Assembly: GCF_020085105.1 (NCBI RefSeq) | Contig: NC_058052.1 | Span: 7,301,733-7,365,732, forward strand | Length of the DNA stretch: 64,000 nt | From: Siniperca chuatsi | Taxonomy: Eukaryota; Chordata; Actinopteri; Centrarchiformes; Sinipercidae | Reading direction: 5' to 3' | Shown here: piece by piece, positions 1,782 to 51,395 of the stretch | Layout of the letters: each line of letters starts with the position of its first letter | How positions within the stretch are numbered: the stretch's first letter is position 1 | Program-made: the position numbers and the translations under genes | Notes under the pieces: model-generated | Told to the model about the DNA's origin: nothing | Database searches by the model: none | What the model saw: only the letters and a program-made list of their open reading frames with translations

Positions 1782-4415
1782 AAATGCTGCTGTGGAGGGC
1801 TACATCCAGCAGTTCCTGTATACCTATCGTTTCCTCTGCACTCCTGAGCAGTTACTGCAGTTCATAATGGATAAATTCATCAGTGCTGCAAGGTGCTGTA
1901 TATCCAGTAGCTCATGATTGCATAGAGAACAAGCTATGTACAGTTTGACAAGAAAATCCATGAAAATCTCCAGTCCAGCCTCTCCTGTAAACTACAAAAC
2001 ATAATGCACAATAGCACACAGTATGAAACATCTTGCACTGATTGTATGATGATTATGTTTGTTTTCTATGCCAGACAAGGTCCAGACATGTCTGGAGACA
2101 GTGAAAAGATCTTCCATCGCAGTCTGGACCTGCTCCAGTTTTGGATAACAGACTGTAGAAGGGTGGACTTCACACCAAAGTCCAGCCTTGTGGATACGTT
2201 AGAAAACTTCCTTAATACTGAGGTAATCACATAAGCATACATGTTGCTCCGCACTTTACAGAGATGACTTGTCAGTCAAATATGACAGTATTTTACCCTG
2301 GAATTTCCTGTCTAAATATTTGCGTTCCTGAAGGTGGCTGTTTCTGCTCCTGCTACCTACACACTTCATCTTCTGTTAGTTATAATCAATCTTTCTGCTG
2401 TTGGAAGCATCAAACTTCCTGTGTGTCATCATATTTTATGGGTGAAAAGACCGTCGGACACTGGGTATTTAGAACAGCATAAGTAGAATCTTTCATGAAG
2501 CATACAACTCAAATCACCAGTGCAGCATATTATTATATGACAGATAGCAAAAGGCATCAATTAAAACATGTTTTTGCTATAAGATGCAGTTTAAGCCGTT
2601 TAACCGTGTAAAATCATCACGTCACCTTTTTGTCTGTATGAAATGTACAATGTCTACATTCTGTAGTTTCCTCTTATTTCCCCCCAAAGGTGATACCTGT
2701 AGACAGCCGAGGGGAGGCCATTCTTGCTGCTCTCCACAGCCCTCCATGTAGAACTTGGAGCCAAGGCAGAGGAAGCCTGATCAGCTTTGAGGAAGATGAT
2801 GATTCTATGTGTCTGCATTCATCTACTGAGGATCTTGGGAGAAAGGTCAGTATAAAATGGTGATAATATGCTTTGTTTGGATTTTGTAAATACTCTCTGT
2901 CATCAAAAAAAATTAACTAAAGTAATCTAAAAACGGTAGCTCTGGTCATCCCAATCTTTTAAGGTTTTCTATAGTGGTCAGCTACAATATAATACAATAG
3001 AAACTGCATTCATTTTGCAGTTTGATGCTACTTAATACCAGCAGGTTCAGCCCTTGTTGATTAGGGTTTTTCTTTTTCTTTTCTTTACTGAGCTTTTACT
3101 TCTGTTGGGGACAACAAATGTGCAAACACTTTCCTACCAAAATCCATACCTGCCATCTAAATTGAATCTGGGCAAATATGCAGAATCTATTAGGTTTTTA
3201 TTTAGAGAAGATCTGTCGCAGCCTGACTTTCTGGTGATAGGTAGACTGTAACTGGCCACTCATTTATTGATTCTATTGTCTCGCTGCTGTTGAACAAGGG
3301 CACCCTGCATGAAATACAAAATAGCATAGCTATTGTCAGTGTGTTTACATAATTCAGAGCATGTACCCTCTCTTTCTCAACCCTTCAGTGGAGATTCTCA
3401 AGAGTAGTGGAGCCATCTGCATCCCTGCCTAAAGAGAAGGCCTTCTCCATTGCTGCAGCCCTGCCTATGCCTTGCTACGGCTCCATGGTGGACGACCTCT
3501 CCAACGTCTGCCTGCACAGTGAGGAGCGACTCCCCTTCAGCCAGAATGAATGCAGCGCACAGCACATAGCTCAACAGCTCACCCTCCTGCAGCAGGTACA
3601 CACACATACTGTACAGTCCACTCCCCCACCTTGCGCTTAAGTTGCTGTTGTCTCTTTTTACCACAAGAGGGAGACATGCCTTTATAAATGCAAAGTAAGA
3701 GCTTGATTAATACAGTCAACTCCTGATATAATATTGAAGTTGTACCTTTTGTAATGCAGGGAATGTTCCAAGGATGTCATCCAGTTCATTTCCTCAACTC
3801 CAGAATACAAGGAATCAGGGACAAAGTCTCAACCCCCAACAAGTGAGTATAATGTTTCAGCTTAACACAATGTTTACTTATGTTACATACAAATAGATGA
3901 CAAATCAATTCAATTCAGTTTTATTTATATAGTGCCAATTCATAACAGAAGTTATCTCATTGCACTTTTTCTATAGAGCAGGTCTAGACCGTAGATATTC
4001 CTACATTTCTGTTTTCCCCCCACCAGGAATGTGTCTCAGCATATCCCGCCAGAGGGCAGCAGTCTGCTTGTGTGTGATGGGACGCCATCAGACAGCCACC
4101 TCCAGCAGCTGCTGACATATGCTGACAGTGTCACTAACTGGATCTCTGCTGAAATAGTCATCTGCGACTCTGTCAAGGTGAGAGGAGACGTAACTCATGA
4201 AAGTAAAAGGCAGCCATTACTGTCACAGCCTGTGCTTTGATTTCTCACTGGACATGGACTCTCATGATGTCAGTCACAGACTTTCCCCATGTGTGCTTTC
4301 TGTTGCTTCTCTAGTCTTGTGGTTGAATGGTGTATAGACAGTTAGGAACAAGAACATATGGGTCTAAACCCTGAAACAGTTCTTTAGTAAAGTAATTTGT
4401 GTGCCTTGTGCCTAA

Positions 4416-11600: not shown

Positions 11601-12353
11601 GCTTTGTCATATAACTAAACGATCAGTTTAGCGGCATTGTCCCTCGGCTGCTGCATGCAGAGCTCTCTCAGTGGAGGGCCCGCAGACCCCTCGGGTCCGG
11701 CGCTGCGTGTTGGAAAGCTGTCTCTCGGTTTATTTGGCACCTAATAGACATTATGCGATACTGTCAGCCACCACGTTAACGGTTTACAGATAGTGGAGAA
11801 GCCAACCCTGATGACAGGCGTAGGCTAGTTTATAGTGATCTTACCTATTTATGCCTAAGTGATTATTAATGGGATATCTAGATTTGTTGGTATGTGAAGC
11901 GGTCAGTTTGAGGGTTCCGTCATGTTTCCACGGGGCTTGTTTGCGCTCACGGGGTTTCCCCAGCTTCCTCGCAGCTTGTTTTAGCAGATTTACATTTGAA
12001 CCGGCCGACAATCAGCCGTGATTGTGTCGCTACTGTAATACCTTTGATCCGTAATGTTTGAAGCGCCTGTGCCAAATGCCTGCGTTTTTTTTTTTTTTTT
12101 TGGGGTAGCTGGCGCCAGCGCTCACCAGGGTACCAAAGACATGTCAATACGAAACCATCGAGGATTGTGTTTCCCCCAAGTGCGAGCTGAAGGTTTCACA
12201 AGTGATGTGTGTTGAGGTTTGGGAGGCTACGATGCAGAAACTGATAGGATCGCGATATGAATATCTCTAAAGTTGGGTTTTACGCATACAATCCGTTCTT
12301 TTACATTCTTCTTTCCATTTGGTCACTGTTAGATGTCTTTAATAGACCTGTTG

Positions 12354-12560
12354 CCAGTGGTGGAATGTAACTAAGTACATTTACTCAAGTACTGTACTTT
12401 GTATAAATGTGAGGTGTTTGTACTTTAGTTGAGTATTTCCATTTTATGCAGCTTTATACTTCTACTCCACATCTCAGAGGCAAATGTTGTGGCTACTTCC
12501 CCCTCCACCACACTTGTCTGACAGCTGTAGTTACTTTTCAGATTATAATTTTTCATACCT
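12354..12560. mobile_element. Partial copy of the element at 10574
   Basis: It shares 'cagtggtgga', 'acatttactcaagtactgtac', 'gttgagtatttccattt' and 'cttctactccac' with the copy at 10574-11155 (words given in pieces). It is truncated at its 3' end. Confidence 0.7.
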
Positions 12561-13172: not shown

Positions 13173-13189
13173 CAGACACAGTGGCGCCA
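13173..13189 (-). promoter_or_regulatory. BMP response element (GGCGCC-N5-GTCTG) upstream of vox
   Basis: The + strand reads CAGACACAGTGGCGCCA. On the - strand this is a GGCGCC box, five bases, then GTCTG, the composite layout bound by Smad1/5 with Smad4 in BMP-responsive enhancers. The element ends 207 bp before the vox ATG. The vent promoter has the same element at 15791-15807 with 15 of 17 bases identical, which argues for function. Confidence 0.75.
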
Positions 13190-13226
13190 AGTCTTCACAC
13201 ACACTCACTGGGTTTCGTAAAGACTT

Positions 13227-13242
13227 CAATTAACCCCTAATC
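13227..13242 (+). promoter_or_regulatory. Shared ATTAACC / homeodomain-type block, vox promoter
   Basis: CAATTAACCCCTAATC carries ATTA and TAAT cores. The matching block in the vent promoter is CTATTAACCTCAATTA at 15855-15870. Both lie between the BMP element and the octamer (51 and 59 bp upstream of it, measured start to start). This could be a homeodomain input, perhaps auto- or cross-regulation by Vent proteins, which is inference. Confidence 0.4.
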
Positions 13243-13279
13243 ATCGGGATCGATCAGGCGTTAACAAGGGCCAATACAT

Positions 13280-13287
13280 ATGCAAAT
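13280..13287 (+). promoter_or_regulatory. POU octamer ATGCAAAT, vox promoter
   Basis: A perfect octamer that ends 21 bp upstream of the TATA box. The same octamer in the same orientation, preceded by the same AT (ATATGCAAAT), lies upstream of vent. Pou5f3 (the fish Oct4 relative) is known to promote ventral vox/vent-class expression in the zebrafish embryo, so this is a plausible direct site. Confidence 0.65.
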
Positions 13288-13308
13288 CGCAGCAAGGGCC
13301 AGGGCCCC

Positions 13309-13316
13309 TATAAAAG
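13309..13316 (+). promoter_or_regulatory. vox: TATA box of vox
   Basis: TATAAAAG follows a GC-rich stretch 88 bp before the ATG. This predicts transcription start near 13338-13342 and a 5' UTR of roughly 55-60 nt. Confidence 0.75.
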
Positions 13317-13396
13317 CTGACCCTGCACAGGGGCTGCTACCACGCGCTCCCTCTGACACTTGGCGGATTTACAGGTCACTGAGCAGCACTGCGAAC

Positions 13397-14297
13397 ATGG
13401 TGAAATACTTTTCTGTGGACTGGCTGGCCCAGAGCCACGCCGCGCCGACCTGCAGACCTCATGTTCCCTGCATGGTGCAGCCGCGCCCGCCGGCTTATGG
13501 CAAGAGTCACCTGCAGCCAAAACCCAAAGCATCAAAGCCCGCAGGACGCATGGAGCCAGTGGAGAGCAGCGGGCACCAGGAGTCCAGCCTGCGCTCACCT
13601 TCACATCCATCAAGCTGCGCCTCGCCAAGTAAGCAAGCCTACACCTCCTAACTGTGAACCAACGCTTCAGTCTTGGGGCACCAGCAGTGTTTGTAACCAG
13701 AGTTTTCATTTGCTCAGTTTCAGAAATCAGCGGGTATTCCTCTGGGTACGAGAGCGAAGCAGCTTCCTCCGAGTGTCTCTCTGTGGACGAGGGAAGCGAC
13801 GCGGAGAAAGACGGACCGCGGCGCCGAGTCCGCACCAAGTTCACCCCGGAGCAGATCAGCAAGCTGGAGAAGATCTTCACCAAGCACAAGTACCTGGACG
13901 CTGGGGAGAGAGTGAAGACAGCGCAGAGGATGAACCTCAGCGAGACCCAGGCAAGACCAGACTCTCAGCGCAAACAAACCGCTTCAGTAACATTCAGTGA
14001 AGGGATCTCTAAGTCTGCATTCTTCTGGGAACTCACTTTATTTTGGCTTTCCCTCAGGTGAGGACCTGGTTCCAGAACAGGAGGATGAAGCTGAAACGGG
14101 AGGTGCAGGACTACCTTGTCCCACCGGTGATGTTCCAGTCTCTGCCCCCGGTTCAGTACCACAGCATGGCCGGACAGAGACCCCTCTACCCAGCGACCGG
14201 CCCGGCCTTTTACCCGCTCCCCGTCCCGCAGCTGGTCCTCCGGCAGCAGATGCCCCCTCAGCACCCTCCTCATCGCATGATCCGACATTTCTACTGA
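13397..14297 (+). CDS. vox: Ventral homeobox transcriptional repressor, vox-like (Vent family)
   Basis: Three exons, 13397-13628, 13724-13950 and 14058-14297, encode 232 residues. The start ATG has a good context (gaacATGG) and follows a TATA box. The N-terminus FSVDWLAQS (residues 5-13) fits an eh1-like Groucho-binding motif (FxVxxLA). Homeodomain is residues 110-169, with Arg5 (R114), Thr47 (T156), W48, F49, N51 (N160) and helix 3 VRTWFQNRRMKLKRE; the Thr47 and MKLKRE pattern is Vent-like. The C-terminal tail is Pro/Gln-rich and ends RHFY, as in the next gene. Intron 1 is phase 1 and 95 bp. Intron 2 splits the homeobox after residue 44 and has a GC donor (13951) with AG acceptor (14057). 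Vent-family proteins act in the nucleus downstream of BMP to repress dorsal organiser genes. Calling this copy vox rather than vent rests on its larger size and first position, and is tentative; membership of the family is not. Confidence 0.9.
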
Positions 14298-14443
14298 AGA
14301 ACTGTCAGAGACTCTTCCGACTGAAACACTTAGAAATCCAAACGAGTGCAATCCAGAGCTGTTTTTATCTGATGTGTGATTTTTTTTAATTATATTTGGA
14401 AAAAAAGTTGTAAATAATTTACAGAAAAGTCTATTTATCACTG

Positions 14444-14449
14444 AATAAA
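14444..14449 (+). terminator. vox: AATAAA, vox polyadenylation signal
   Basis: A canonical hexamer 147 bp after the vox stop codon, in AT-rich sequence, giving a short 3' UTR. Confidence 0.75.
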
Positions 14450-14469
14450 GTTTCTTCTATACTGCAGCA

Positions 14470-15790
14470 CTGGACTCCGCCTTGTAACTGTTGAACATTT
14501 AGGCCATTAGATGCAGGCCCGGCTACCATGGTGCCAACAGTGTATATCTTAAAGATGCAGCTGATGATATTATCTTTATTGCAGGATTAGTTCAACATGA
14601 ATAGACCATCCTGTTTTTCATCTTAAGGCGGGAGGAAGTTGGGGGGGTTGTCCATTAAGGTTAAAGGTTCTTATCACAACTCATTGTATGGATCTCCTGG
14701 TTTGCTTCTCTCATAATATCAAGCTGATATGAGGCCAAAGGCCAGTCAAACCTATCCATACAAACAAATCATACTAAATTAAATCACTGAGGATTTTGCA
14801 TGATTTTTTTTTTTTTGGGGGTCCTTACCTGTCAACAAACACTGGCCATATGCTTTGCTTTGCATACGCGCTGTTTGTCCCCCTCTCTGCACTTCAAACG
14901 CCTGCTAACGGGGAGATCATGGTCAACAATTAGTCCCAACAAAGCCGCTCACTGATGAGTTTACACTTGCGACGGGAGCCCCGCGGCCCGGCTCCAGAGA
15001 GTCTGGGCTTTTGTGTGGCCAACGAATCCGACGTCTGAGGCCTGCGGTTAAAACCTGATTATGCCATGAGATTTGGAGATAGCACAGGTGATTAAAAGTT
15101 CGTGTATATGTGCAAGTCGCAGGCCTGTATTTACAGTTTCCTTCTAGATGATTTGGCTCAGGACGTTATGTGAATATTTCCAGTCCAAATCCATTTTATG
15201 CAAACGCGGGGAAATGGCAGGTAGATACAAAGAATTAACGCAACTTTTGCTGTAAATGATTGATTTGAAAACGGGAGAAGCTGCTTTGCGGGTCACACAG
15301 GTCAGCTGTGGCGTGGGGGGGGCCCTGAGGCCCTTCAGCAAATGTCTCGGTCAACAAAGATCAAACGGAACTTTCTCACTCTCCGCCGGTGCTTTCTGGC
15401 TGCGGTCACACCAGAACACCAGAACAAAGGCTGCGTGATGCTCAGACAGCTGGGCGCTTCTGTCTGCAACTGCAAAAAATCAATAACAGATTTGACAGCA
15501 GCCAGGACTGAGACATTCTGATTGAAAAAGTTTCTTGTTTTGTTTTTTTTAATTTGGGAAATTCTCTTAAAACACCAACATATGGCTTAAATATACGATG
15601 ATTTGATACACTGTGTCAGTTCATGGAACAGGGAATACTTTACATAAGAATGTCTTTGGCCAATGGGACATTAGGACTTAAAGCTTAAAGCAGTCGGGCT
15701 ACCTATCTGACATTTTAGTTTTGCATTCAGTAGCGGATATAGCCCGGAATCACTTTATGCAGAGATCTGAGATGCCAGGTAACTGATACT
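14470..15790. other. vox-vent intergenic region
   Basis: 1.3 kb with no gene. It holds a T13G5 homopolymer junction (14804-14821). The part 14900-15320 is not obviously repetitive and is moderately GC-rich; it is a candidate for shared regulatory sequence, without a decisive motif. Confidence 0.45.
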
Positions 15791-15807
15791 CAGACTCACT
15801 GGCGCCA
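15791..15807 (-). promoter_or_regulatory. BMP response element (GGCGCC-N5-GTCTG) upstream of vent
   Basis: The + strand reads CAGACTCACTGGCGCCA; the reverse complement is GGCGCC, five bases, GTCTG. It ends 223 bp before the vent ATG and matches the vox element at 13173-13189 in 15 of 17 positions, in the same orientation and at nearly the same distance. Confidence 0.75.
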
Positions 15808-15854
15808 GAGCATCTCAGCCAGCCATGAACGTGAGAAAAACCACAGCCCAGCCT

Positions 15855-15870
15855 CTATTAACCTCAATTA
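15855..15870 (+). promoter_or_regulatory. Shared ATTAACC / homeodomain-type block, vent promoter
   Basis: CTATTAACCTCAATTA, the counterpart of 13227-13242 in the vox promoter. It sits between the BMP element and the octamer. Confidence 0.4.
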
Positions 15871-15908: not shown

Positions 15909-15923
15909 TTTGCATATGCAAAT
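15909..15923 (+). promoter_or_regulatory. Palindromic POU octamer pair, vent promoter
   Basis: TTTGCATATGCAAAT contains a perfect octamer ATGCAAAT (15916-15923) overlapped head-on by a near-octamer on the other strand, making a 14-bp perfect palindrome (15909-15922). Its TGCATATGCA core resembles the dimeric POU site known as MORE. It ends 18 bp upstream of the TATA box. Confidence 0.65.
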
Positions 15924-15941: not shown

Positions 15942-15948
15942 TATATAG
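15942..15948 (+). promoter_or_regulatory. vent: TATA box of vent
   Basis: TATATAG lies 89 bp before the ATG, against 88 bp in vox. The predicted 5' UTR is about 60 nt and includes a short (CA)n run near 15990-16004. Confidence 0.65.
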
Positions 15949-16030
15949 CGGCCAAGAGTCACCCAAGGTGAAGCAACACAGACCAACGCACACACACACA
16001 CACACCTTGAGACCGCTGCTGAGGAACAAC

Positions 16031-16943
16031 ATGGCAAACTTCTCTGTAGAATGGCTTTCCAAAAGTTATTATGAGGAGACGAGTGTGCAGGGTCGGGCTG
16101 CTGCGCGTCATTCAAAAGTCCATAGTGAAATGGAGGAATTTACAAAGGACTCAAGAAGCCACTACTCTCCGACCTCGCCAAACAGTAAGTTCACTGATAA
16201 AACTTTGTCTTAAAACGTGTTGTCTTGTGTAGGTACCGATCTAGACCAAATGAATAAAACGCTCTGTTCTTCCTTCCAGATAGTTGCGGATACACTTCGG
16301 GGTCTGAGAGCGAGGTGGGAGATGACAGCGAGGGGGAAGCCACCCAGCAACGAAGGATGAGGACAAAGTTCACCTCCGAGCAAATCAGCAAACTGGAGAA
16401 TACCTTCAGCAAGCACAAGTACCTGGGCTCTGTGCAGAGGAGGAAGATTGCCGAGAAGCTGAACCTCTCAGAAACTCAGGTGGGTTTGCGTTGCAGCGGG
16501 TCTCGAGGCCTCCTGTGACACTGCAGAGGTCTCTGAGAAAGTCACAGCACCTTGTCATTAGTTGGCCTGTGTTGTTGTGTAGTTCTATGTAAAGCAACTT
16601 TAAAGTAGGTCTACGGTGTGGGGCTCCCTGTGTGTGTTTTTCAACTAGTGATTACAGCTGAGCATGTAGTGAATGGCCGCCTTGTATTTCCCAGGTGAAA
16701 ACGTGGTTCCAGAACAGGAGGATGAAGCTGAAGCGGGAGGTGCAGGATCTGCGTCCTGAGTTCCTGCCGGTCCCGGCCGCTCTGCTGCCGCCTCTGCTGT
16801 TTCAGCACCCCGCCCTGCGTGGACAGCTCCCCGCCAGCAGCGGCTTCTACCCGCAGCTGCAGCCGCTCCGCGGGACGGCCCTGCCCGCTCCTCCGCACCA
16901 ACAGCGCCCCCACCCTGTCAGCATGCCTCCACACTTCTACTGA
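16031..16943 (+). CDS. vent: Ventral homeobox transcriptional repressor, vent-like (Vent family)
   Basis: Three exons, 16031-16184, 16280-16479 and 16695-16943, encode 200 residues. The start has a strong context (aacaacATGG). The N-terminus FSVEWLSKS (residues 4-12) is the same eh1-like motif as in vox. A Ser/acidic linker (SGSESEVGDDSEGE) precedes the homeodomain at residues 75-134, with Arg5 (R79), helix 3 VKTWFQNRRMKLKREVQD, Thr47 (T121) and N51 (N125). The tail is Pro/Leu/Gln-rich and ends PHFY. Intron phases (1, 0) and positions match vox exactly, and intron 1 is again 95 bp; intron 2 has an ordinary GT donor (16480). It sits 1.7 kb after vox in the same direction, so the two are a tandem duplicate pair. 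The likely role is BMP-dependent repression of dorsal genes. The name vent is tentative relative to vox. Confidence 0.9.
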
Positions 16944-17174: not shown

Positions 17175-18640
17175 CCTCTTCACGTCTTTGTCTTCGCTTG
17201 GAATACTGACAATATTTTCTCCAGCTGTTATACTTGGAGCCTGATATCGTACAGCCCGTTACTCATGCATATTTAAACAATCACAGCATCTAAAATTAGA
17301 TTTGGGGTTATGACATGTGAAGTACACATATGGGCATTTTGCAGGTTAGCGGTCTAGTGTTAATGTGGCCTGTAACCATGTTGTGCTTTATTCCCACTTT
17401 TTCTGTACCTCCCTCCCTCTTTCCTTTCTTTGAAAAACCTTCACGGACAAGAAGGTTGTCACACTCAGGTCGCTTATTTGTTAGAATATCTGCAGGCACG
17501 GTTCGGGGCTATCACAGAGAGACAAAAAGATGCTGTCTCCGGCTGCTGCAAGCAAATATTTTCATTTGGCGTCCGGTGGCATGACTCCAAGCTGTGATAG
17601 CTCTGTGCTCCTGGTAGATTTGCATCTTCAAAAGGACTTCAAAGCGGCGGTAACTGCTGGATCATTGAGATCCAGTGAGCTCTATTGTCTCTCGATTGAA
17701 CAATTCGCACTTACTCGAGAGACGCGGAGGGATGGCGCCCTCAAGTCTGCTTAAGGTGTATATTGCCTCACGTTAAAGTCATTAGGTGGCCCCGGCTAAA
17801 TAGGTAACTGATTGAGTCTCTCTGTCATAAAGCGGCTGTGCCTTGTTCGCTTATAATTTGCGATTCGGATCCAGCATAGGAAATACCCGCTGGTGGAGTG
17901 ATTCCATCAGACACTGACTGCGTCAGTCGGATCTTTGGCAGGTTTTGCGTTTAGAAGCCACACTCCCGATTCCAAGGAGGTTCAGCAGGGCCTGCTCCCT
18001 GCATGTGCAAGTACATTTAAAAAGAAAAGAACTACTGACGCCTCCCACCAGGAGGCACAATTACCAAAGGAGACGATTAGAATGCCATGCATCAGTTCCT
18101 ACTGTAATGAGAAGAACATTATTCATTTAAAGTCTTACTGGACCATATATTCATTTATGCAGCGCCTCTATGCAAAGCACCACACAGTGCTAGGCCTCAG
18201 TCTGCAGCATTCCCTGGGATTGTTCCTGGCCCTAATGGCAACATGAACATCAGTAAATGATCTAATGTGAGAGGGCAAAGAATTGGTGGCTTGAATGACA
18301 ATGAGTGATCCCTTTGAATCAGGTGAGCGGCTAGGTGAAGAGGCGCTAACAGTCGCTCTGAGGCTGCAGCTGGATGGCAGCAGACAGACTGGAGCCAAGA
18401 CTGGATGATAGGGAGAGGCCAAAGGTTGCTAATGAGATCTACAACATCAGCTGATGATTGCAGTGATGAAATTAAGCTTACAGTATGCAGCTCTCAGGGG
18501 AATTCTTTCAACTGCTCTAAATGTAGACTTAGCCTTTGGATTTGGATTTATTTATTTATTTTTAAACACTCAAGAGAAGTGTGGCCAATTCTGAAAACCC
18601 CCAGAGGTTACAAATGGTAGTTTAATAACTCAAGTCCCCT
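17175..18640. other. Intergenic region downstream of vent
   Basis: No gene seen. The part 17500-18100 looks single-copy and contains an inverted octamer (ATTTGCAT, 17618-17625) and SOX-type words (ATTGT at 17684-17688, then ACAAT near 17700) within 100 bp. It is a candidate enhancer shared by vent and mir202. Confidence 0.35.
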
Positions 18641-18647
18641 TTTGTCA

Positions 18648-19335
18648 GTGGTGGAAAGTAAAAGTAACAAAGTAGACAAGCATTATGCTGAGTATTTCCA
18701 TTTCATGCCACTTTAAACTTCCACTCCACTACATTTCTTACTTTCTACTCGACTGCACTTATGTGACAGATATAGTAGCTAACTGGTTACGTTGCAGGTT
18801 AAGTTTTTACATATAAAAAAAAGCATATGATAAGTGTATATAATATAATGCATTGCTAAAGATTAAACCAGCGGTTCCAGTGGTTTATGAGTTCCACCAG
18901 CAGATATTTCCCCTTTAAACCTCTCAGATGGTTTCATTAAAATAACACTTTGAGGCACAAAGACTTTCCAGTTTTATCCATTTTTTCACAAAAGAAAGCA
19001 AAGATTCAAGCCAAAGTGTAGCTGAACTTTTTGTTTTTTCTTCTTTCCTAGCCCATTAATCATCTAACCGGCCCTCAGATTTATCTCTGGAGGGGCCCGA
19101 CCCCTTTGGTTGGGAACCACTGGACTAAACTACCAAACTGTATATAAAGCAGTTAAAACGAGCTCCACCTCAAGCAGCTACAGCAGTGACATGTTACTTA
19201 TGCCCTTGTGCATCAACAATCTAATAATGTCATATATATCAGTCACAAGGGCCATTTTCCTACAGAACCAGTGCTTTTATTGATTAATTTTAAGTACATT
19301 TTGCTGGTAATACTTTTGTACTTTTACTGTGAGTG
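18648..19335. mobile_element. Copy of the 10574-type element with a nested repeat
   Basis: The ends match the 10574-11155 family ('cagtggtggaaagtaaaagtaac' in pieces; 'tttgtacttttactgtga'). The interior 18870-19135 ('ccagcggttccagtgg' to 'ggttgggaaccactgg') has inverted ends and looks like a second element inserted into the first. Confidence 0.6.
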
Positions 19336-47492: not shown

Positions 47493-47843
47493 ATCAAGAA
47501 CAAGAATATCAAACAAGAGAGAGGAAAAAAAGTTCATCAGTTTCACAAACTTGTTTTTGCTGCAATTTGATCACTTAAACGCTTCCAGCACAGAGAGAAT
47601 GACTTATTAAGCTTGGAGATTCTTCCATTTAATCTTACGCCTCTAGTTACAGTTTTTCATATTTTTTTGCCTTATCGTGTAAATATAGAACTGCTCTGCT
47701 GAAACCAGAGATCACAACAGTAGTTATTAAGAGGCTATTCAAAGGGTTTTTTTTAAATGTCAGTTCTATAAAGTGCTGTATGCCCCCTTTTTGTCAAAGA
47801 CAAGGTAGTGGCTCCCTTACGTCTGATTTGTGATCTTGGTTCC

Positions 47844-51395
<3,552 letters not shown>

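Follow-up and report, generated by a model that had tools for sequence, protein, structure and literature searches.

In the window analysed here (the whole stretch of 64,000 nucleotides from Siniperca chuatsi), two adjoining homeobox genes, one vox-like and one vent-like, each carry in the proximal promoter a short block which, judged from the sequence, we take with a probability of roughly 85% to be a conserved Smad-type response element for bone morphogenetic protein (BMP), activating vox and vent and already present in the promoter of the gene from which both derive. The candidate BMP response element (BRE) of vox is located at 13173-13189 on the minus strand (GGCGCC-ACTGT-GTCTG; plus strand CAGACACAGTGGCGCCA) and that of vent at 15791-15807, also on the minus strand (GGCGCC-AGTGA-GTCTG; plus strand CAGACTCACTGGCGCCA). 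An earlier note on this DNA had pointed out the two blocks, and on recheck their sequences, coordinates, common orientation and identity at 15 of 17 positions were all exact, as were the distances of 207 bp (vox) and 223 bp (vent) from the end of the element to the ATG and the completeness of GGCGCC-N5-GTCTG on the minus strand of both. The claim that this spacing is that of Smad1/5-Smad4 elements also holds, with the GGCGCC half, the GTCTG half and a spacer of exactly 5 present in each block and the same layout described in PMC3439458 and PMC8569018. The proposed reading of the blocks as Smad1/5-Smad4 BMP elements draws support from motif, spacing, position, gene identity and retention across species.

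A chance resemblance picked out by eye has in its favour that the 15/17 match between the blocks was equalled by 92 of 6000 pairs of 300-bp segments drawn at random from the window, so the match is only mildly unusual by itself. The motif itself behaves differently. GGCGCC-N5-GTCTG, the consensus as given for Id2/Id3 in PMC3439458, occurs at 3 sites in the 64 kb, while the mean expected from 400 first-order Markov simulations is 0.005, an excess of about 600-fold. When the frog variant GGCTCC is allowed (GGCKCC-N5-GTCTG), there are 6 sites against 0.03 expected from simulations, a figure that is partly post hoc because the variant was added once the frog primers were known. In a spacing scan of GGCKCC-Nk-GTCTG with k from 0 to 15, k=5 gave 6 sites and all other values combined gave 1. 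Moreover, among 1800 letter arrangements tried on the real sequence, GGCKCC-N5-GTCTG ranked first (6 sites), and only two others occurred more than once (3 sites each), both still containing GGCGCC. The strict-motif excess and the arrangement ranking rule out chance resemblance for practical purposes, and together with the compatibility of every collected promoter peptide that reaches the element (see below) they make it hardly credible.

The conservation test relied on back-translation of accidental promoter translations. Certain public gene models and assembled frames of fish extend across the promoter of vox or vent, for example those of Mugil cephalus (P0020), Menidia menidia (P0091) and Nerophis (P0100) and the assembled frames P0122-P0129, and because they read through the promoter by accident, such 'proteins' preserve its sequence up to codon degeneracy. 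The protein set comprised 129 sequences; the vox protein search gave the best 120 of 398 matches, and 28 sequences were fetched by identifier. When all 129 were compared with the promoters by tblastn (E up to 1e-3), 10 matched the vox promoter and 5 the vent promoter. Among the vox ten, P0020, P0091, P0121, P0127, P0128 and P0129 span the element, P0001, P0014 and P0068 start downstream of it, and P0100, which aligned downstream only, was set on the element by hand (LADCVAP). P0121 (a second Menidia record) and P0001 (a Siniperca chuatsi model) were left out of the counts. All 11 counted peptides (6 vox, 5 vent) can encode CAGAC-N5-GGCGCC at the aligned place, whereas this pattern fails at each of the 496 remaining offsets of these peptides and with every other spacer length tried from 0 to 11. 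Seen from the whole protein set, 7 of the 129 have a vox-type extension reaching the element and all 7 fit, namely the six counted and P0121, which was read by eye and has the same peptide there as P0091. The gene start was unrecognised in 12 of the 129 proteins, four of which are the vent peptides P0122, P0123, P0124 and P0126. As the vox cases were picked up through their coding part or, to judge from a query coverage of 9-10%, through promoter downstream of the element, the vox search was not selective for the element; for the vent cases the search query included it. The absence of the element from related species, which the earlier note had named as counter-evidence, was looked for through the promoter peptides only, and in every peptide that extends to the element both half-sites are retained, five bases apart.

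Among the letters constrained by these peptides, 92/92 agree with the window in the half-sites, 29/41 in the spacer and 344/395 in the flanks. With three peptides dropped (P0100, which was placed by hand, and one member of each pair of similar peptides) the counts are 66/66, 22/29 and 236/265, and with five dropped they are 49/49, 17/22 and 187/205. Fixed halves, drifting spacer letters and a constant spacer length are as predicted for a two-part binding site of fixed geometry. The same figures bear on the view that the blocks are a neutral remnant of tandem duplication, kept through the kinship of the two promoters and not through function. The promoters are indeed akin: a global alignment of their proximal parts has 94 identities in 146 columns and scores 80.5, where the null gave 53.2 (standard deviation 6.6) and 0 of 300 trials scored as high. 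As this exceeds chance, the promoters share a common descent, and the BMP element does not stand as an isolated island. The claim that the surroundings had largely diverged stood only in part, because the proximal promoters still align globally, with an octamer and a TTAACC box in the same order. (MAFFT on 700-bp upstream stretches put the blocks out of register, while global alignment of the proximal part brought them into register.) Conservation among orthologues extends to the flanks and to other stretches. However, mere kinship leaves unexplained why the half-sites are unchanged throughout while the 5-bp spacer drifts and its length is constant in 11/11, and the match to frog ventx1.1 described below spans the fish-tetrapod split; we regard a neutral remnant as very improbable. 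Recent gene conversion limited to the 17 bp was also considered, and it is rejected by reasoning from the spacers, which differ, and from other fish, which keep the element in each gene.

A counterpart of both blocks is found in the Xenopus ventx1.1 (PV.1A) gene, which belongs to the same gene family as vox and vent and whose BRE plus 'Oaz element' lies at -180/-162 (PMC3153937). According to the primer table of that paper, the promoter reads ACTAACCTGACAGACTCACTGG from -180, followed by the -162 primer ACTGGAGCCAGGACCAGG. The frog block CAGACTCACTGGAGCCA is identical to the fish vent block at 16/17 positions, including the full spacer TCACT, and to the vox block at 14/17; the chance of a match of at least 16/17 in 1 kb of one strand is about 3e-6. 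CAGAC is at -170 in the frog and, if the fish start is assumed at TATA+31, would be at -167 in vox and -182 in vent, so that the positions would agree within about 12 bp. The frog block differs in having GGAGCC (GGCTCC when read on the opposite strand) in place of the GGCGCC of both fish blocks, whereby TGGAGC of the frog Oaz part becomes TGGCGC in fish. In PMC3153937, the GC part is read as an Oaz site; changing CAGA to CCAA abolished the response to BMP4/Smad1, changing TGGAGC to TAAAGC abolished the cooperation of BMP4 with Oaz, and Smad1 and Smad4 were found to bind the repeat. Smad1 has also been located on the proximal ventx1.1 promoter by chromatin immunoprecipitation-PCR (PMC6065435). 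The comparison suggests that the frog 'Oaz element' may be, at least partly, the half-site for receptor-regulated Smads (R-Smads) of the same composite element.

The frog data also bear on whether the blocks are general Smad landing sites used mainly by Smad2/3-Smad4 of the Nodal pathway instead of the BMP Smads. GGCGC motifs bind all R-Smads; Smad3 and Smad4 bind 5GC motifs and the dichotomy among R-Smads is loose (PMC5727232), and Smad3 bound the frog BRE repeat in vitro (PMC3153937). On the other side, the GGCGCC-N5-GTCTG geometry is tied to Smad1/5-Smad4 (PMC3439458, PMC8569018), the activity of the frog promoter was unchanged by mutant Smad2 isoforms and raised by Smad1 and Smad4 (PMC3153937), and it is BMP that maintains vox and vent in zebrafish (PMC8753366). 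A mainly Nodal use of the sites is therefore improbable, and activation through BMP Smads is preferred.

Several points nevertheless weigh against conserved BMP elements and have to be set beside the evidence above. The 15/17 match alone is an event of about 1.5%. The p values for the half-sites (2e-7 against the spacer and 2e-5 against the flanks for all 11 peptides, 1e-4 and 0.0024 with three dropped, 0.002 and 0.028 with five dropped) are a guide only, because the fish are related and the cells are not independent. Back-translation gives compatibility and not identity, and 8 of the 11 peptides, including all 5 from vent, come from the assembled frames P0122-P0129. Fully compatible contiguous stretches of 11 nt are found elsewhere in the promoters as well (19/193 in vox, 18/208 in vent), and the flanks too are well kept (344/395); the half-sites are thus among the best-kept parts of the promoters and not the sole ones. 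In the frog, a synthetic triple repeat with CAGACTC and without GGAGCC was still responsive to BMP4, and Smad3 bound to it too (PMC3153937). Finally, T at position 15, as present in both fish elements, is the silencer form in Drosophila (PMC7669266).

If the blocks are BMP response elements, ventral BMP would lead to phosphorylation of Smad1/5, which would join Smad4; two R-Smad MH1 domains would then sit on the GGCGCC palindrome and the MH1 domain of Smad4 on GTCTG, five bases away. The scheme described in the fly likewise places two R-Smads on the GC half and a single Smad4 on the second half (PMC7669266). The fixed geometry might recruit a zinc-finger partner of the Schnurri/Hivep or Oaz/Zfp423 type, and a POU factor (Pou5f3) on the ATGCAAAT octamer beside the TATA box might act jointly with the Smad complex. 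Together they would switch on or maintain vox and vent, which would then repress dorsal genes. In zebrafish, vox, vent and ved are maintained by BMP (PMC8753366), vox is directly regulated by Pou5f3 (PMC9240670, PMC8753366), and Pou5f3/Sox19b mutants show lowered levels of vox, vent and ved (PMC8831532). An octamer in both promoters fits these observations, and Pou5f3 is probably the partner there.

The octamers belong to what was added to the earlier note, together with the TTAACC boxes, the frog match and the further sites at 14990, 17734 and 18381. Between the vox and vent promoters, the BMP element gives the strongest local match; next comes CATATGCAAAT, which contains the octamer and is located on the plus strand at 13277-13287 in vox and at 15913-15923 in vent, with ATGCAAAT starting 117 bp and 115 bp before the ATG, respectively. 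In vox, 57/57 constrained cells are compatible with the octamer in 9 taxa, a count that falls to 33/33 without three hand-added taxa, which fit by choice because they were picked for models opening MQI or MQM at the octamer ATG; in vent, 35/35 are compatible (5 taxa). The P0059 model opens MCK and is apparently one letter different at the octamer (a by-eye reading, outside the counts). A homeodomain-type box, TTAACC, is common to both promoters, at 13230-13235 (plus strand, inside ATTAACCCCTAAT) 167 bp before the vox ATG and at 15858-15863 (plus strand, inside ATTAACCTCAATTA) 173 bp before the vent ATG; its compatible cells (13/14 in vox, 24/24 in vent) show no significant excess over the rest of the promoter. 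Likewise, the TATA box of vox (TATAAAAG, 13309-13316, plus strand) and the TATA-like box of vent (TATATAGC, 15942-15949, plus strand) are conserved no better than the rest. When words for TCF/LEF, GATA, T-box, forkhead, bicoid-class and a few other factors were sought in the 1 kb upstream, matching places besides the element were found only for the octamer, TTAACC and TATA. Between the TTAACC box and the octamer of vox, GGATCGATCAGGCGTT (13247-13262) is fully compatible in the vox translations covering it and has no clear vent counterpart in the global alignment; it is perhaps a vox-specific element. In addition, a reading frame is open from the octamer ATG to the vox ATG (13280-13396), and five fish models (P0001, P0014, P0054, P0070 and P0073) start there, whose N-termini probably represent promoter that was annotated as protein.

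Besides the paired elements, the window contains three further sites of this type near the genes, all less than 3 kb from the vent element: GGCTCC-AGAGA-GTCTG at 14990-15005 (plus strand) between vox and vent, the strict GGCGCC-CTCAA-GTCTG at 17734-17749 (plus strand) about 0.8 kb past vent, and GGCTCC-AGTCT-GTCTG at 18381-18397 (minus strand) about 1.4 kb past vent, the first and the last being identical to the Xenopus 17-mer at 15/17 positions. Five of the six GGCKCC-N5-GTCTG sites of the window are therefore clustered within 5.3 kb around vox and vent. The three sites may form a shared array with the promoter elements, or may be partly fortuitous. A bolder proposal is that five elements (two in the promoters, one intergenic and two past vent; of the five, two have the frog form GGCTCC) would constitute one BMP sensor for both genes, with TGGAGC of the frog 'Oaz element' at least partly the R-Smad half-site of the same composite element, retained since the ancestor of ray-finned fish and tetrapods. 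This remains tentative and rather doubtful, and is weakened by the frog triple repeat, which lacks the GC half and still responds to BMP4. The sixth site, GGCTCCCTTACGTCTG at 47810-47825, lies just beyond the stop of a sulfotransferase frame (47844-48950, minus strand; Pfam Sulfotransfer_1), which presumably resembles the heparan-sulfate 3-O-sulfotransferases. At the vent element, the plus strand has ATCT five bases after GGCGCC (15801-15815), one letter off GTCT, which makes it nearly a two-sided element on one GGCGCC.

The two genes are adjoining three-exon genes on the plus strand. The vox-like gene (13397-14297; exons 13397-13628, 13718-13950 and 14058-14297, the start of exon 2 being placed with the help of the Siniperca chuatsi model P0001) encodes a protein whose top database match, among the best 120 of 398 listed, is a Siniperca chuatsi 'ventral homeobox' model (99%). 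The vent-like gene (16031-16943; exons 16031-16184, 16280-16479 and 16695-16943; 200 amino acids) takes its provisional name from its homeodomain, its location and vox-vent fusion models of other fish. The Pfam Homeodomain was found in both proteins, and both homeodomains show the Ventx-family trait of Thr (RTWFQNRR / KTWFQNRR) at what we take to be position 47. Both genes are of the ventralising (belly-side) type. Thr-47 is described as a mark of Vent and Bar proteins (PMC8911082). Fused Vox-Vent gene models of Anoplopoma (P0003), Coryphaenoides (P0064) and Menidia (P0121) indicate that the tandem order is present in other fish. In P0126, a well-kept vent promoter peptide is followed by a degraded-looking homeodomain, perhaps of a vent gene decaying in some fish. 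No third vent-like gene or remnant that could account for the extra sites was detected in the window by tblastn with Vox and Vent queries, which returned the two genes only and a weak match (E=0.4) at 3510-3659. A repeat-like stretch (GTGGAATGTAACTAAGTA...TGAGTATTTCCATTTTATGC) is present in two diverged copies of like orientation, one on each side of the vox-vent locus, at about 12347-12470 and 18638-18729.

The elements described here would provide a likely sequence basis for the BMP control of both ventralising genes of fish, tied to a frog element already dissected by mutation, and they make a fixed Smad geometry in a key axis-patterning gene look ancient. The unchanged halves with a drifting spacer amount to a natural test of the 5-bp rule, and the extra sites are concrete candidates for tests of redundancy between vox and vent. 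In comparison with known systems, the Mad/Medea/Schnurri element of Drosophila, GRCGNC(N5)GNCT, shares with the fish elements the bipartite layout and T at position 15, although in the fly it is a silencer (PMC7669266). This invites the reading that T at position 15 recruits a Schnurri-type co-repressor and that BMP lowers vox and vent in some tissue or stage, and indeed both fish elements, with exactly 5 nt followed by GTCT, have the Drosophila silencer form and, owing to this T, not the activator form GGCGCCA(N4)GNCV (PMC7669266). In vertebrates, however, the same form activates Id3 and ventx2 (PMC3439458), and so does the near-identical element of frog ventx1.1 (PMC3153937), for which reason we consider silencing unlikely, slightly more so than use by Nodal Smads, and retain activation by BMP. 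With the BREs of Xenopus id3 and ventx2 and of mammalian Id2 (GRCGCC-N5-GTCTG, PMC3439458), the fish elements share both halves, their order and the 5-nt spacer; the Id2, Id3 and ventx2 elements have the same consensus and the same 5-nt requirement (PMC3439458), and a consensus GRCGNC-N5-GTCT is given in PMC8569018. The Id elements sit in other genes than vox and vent, while ventx2 is a member of the family, compared here by description only (PMC3439458). Also compared by description, the proximal BRE of Xvent-2 (-243 to -191, PMC3033397) belongs to the same family and has Smad and OAZ sites in the proximal promoter, somewhat further upstream than the fish elements. Among the titles and abstract openings listed from the open-licence literature, none describes a BMP element for the vox or vent promoter of a fish, and we do not claim that none has been published. 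This kind of element was known before, also from the ventx genes of the frog, and what is added here is the strict, paired case in both fish genes, evidence for its retention in other fish and the candidate extra sites.

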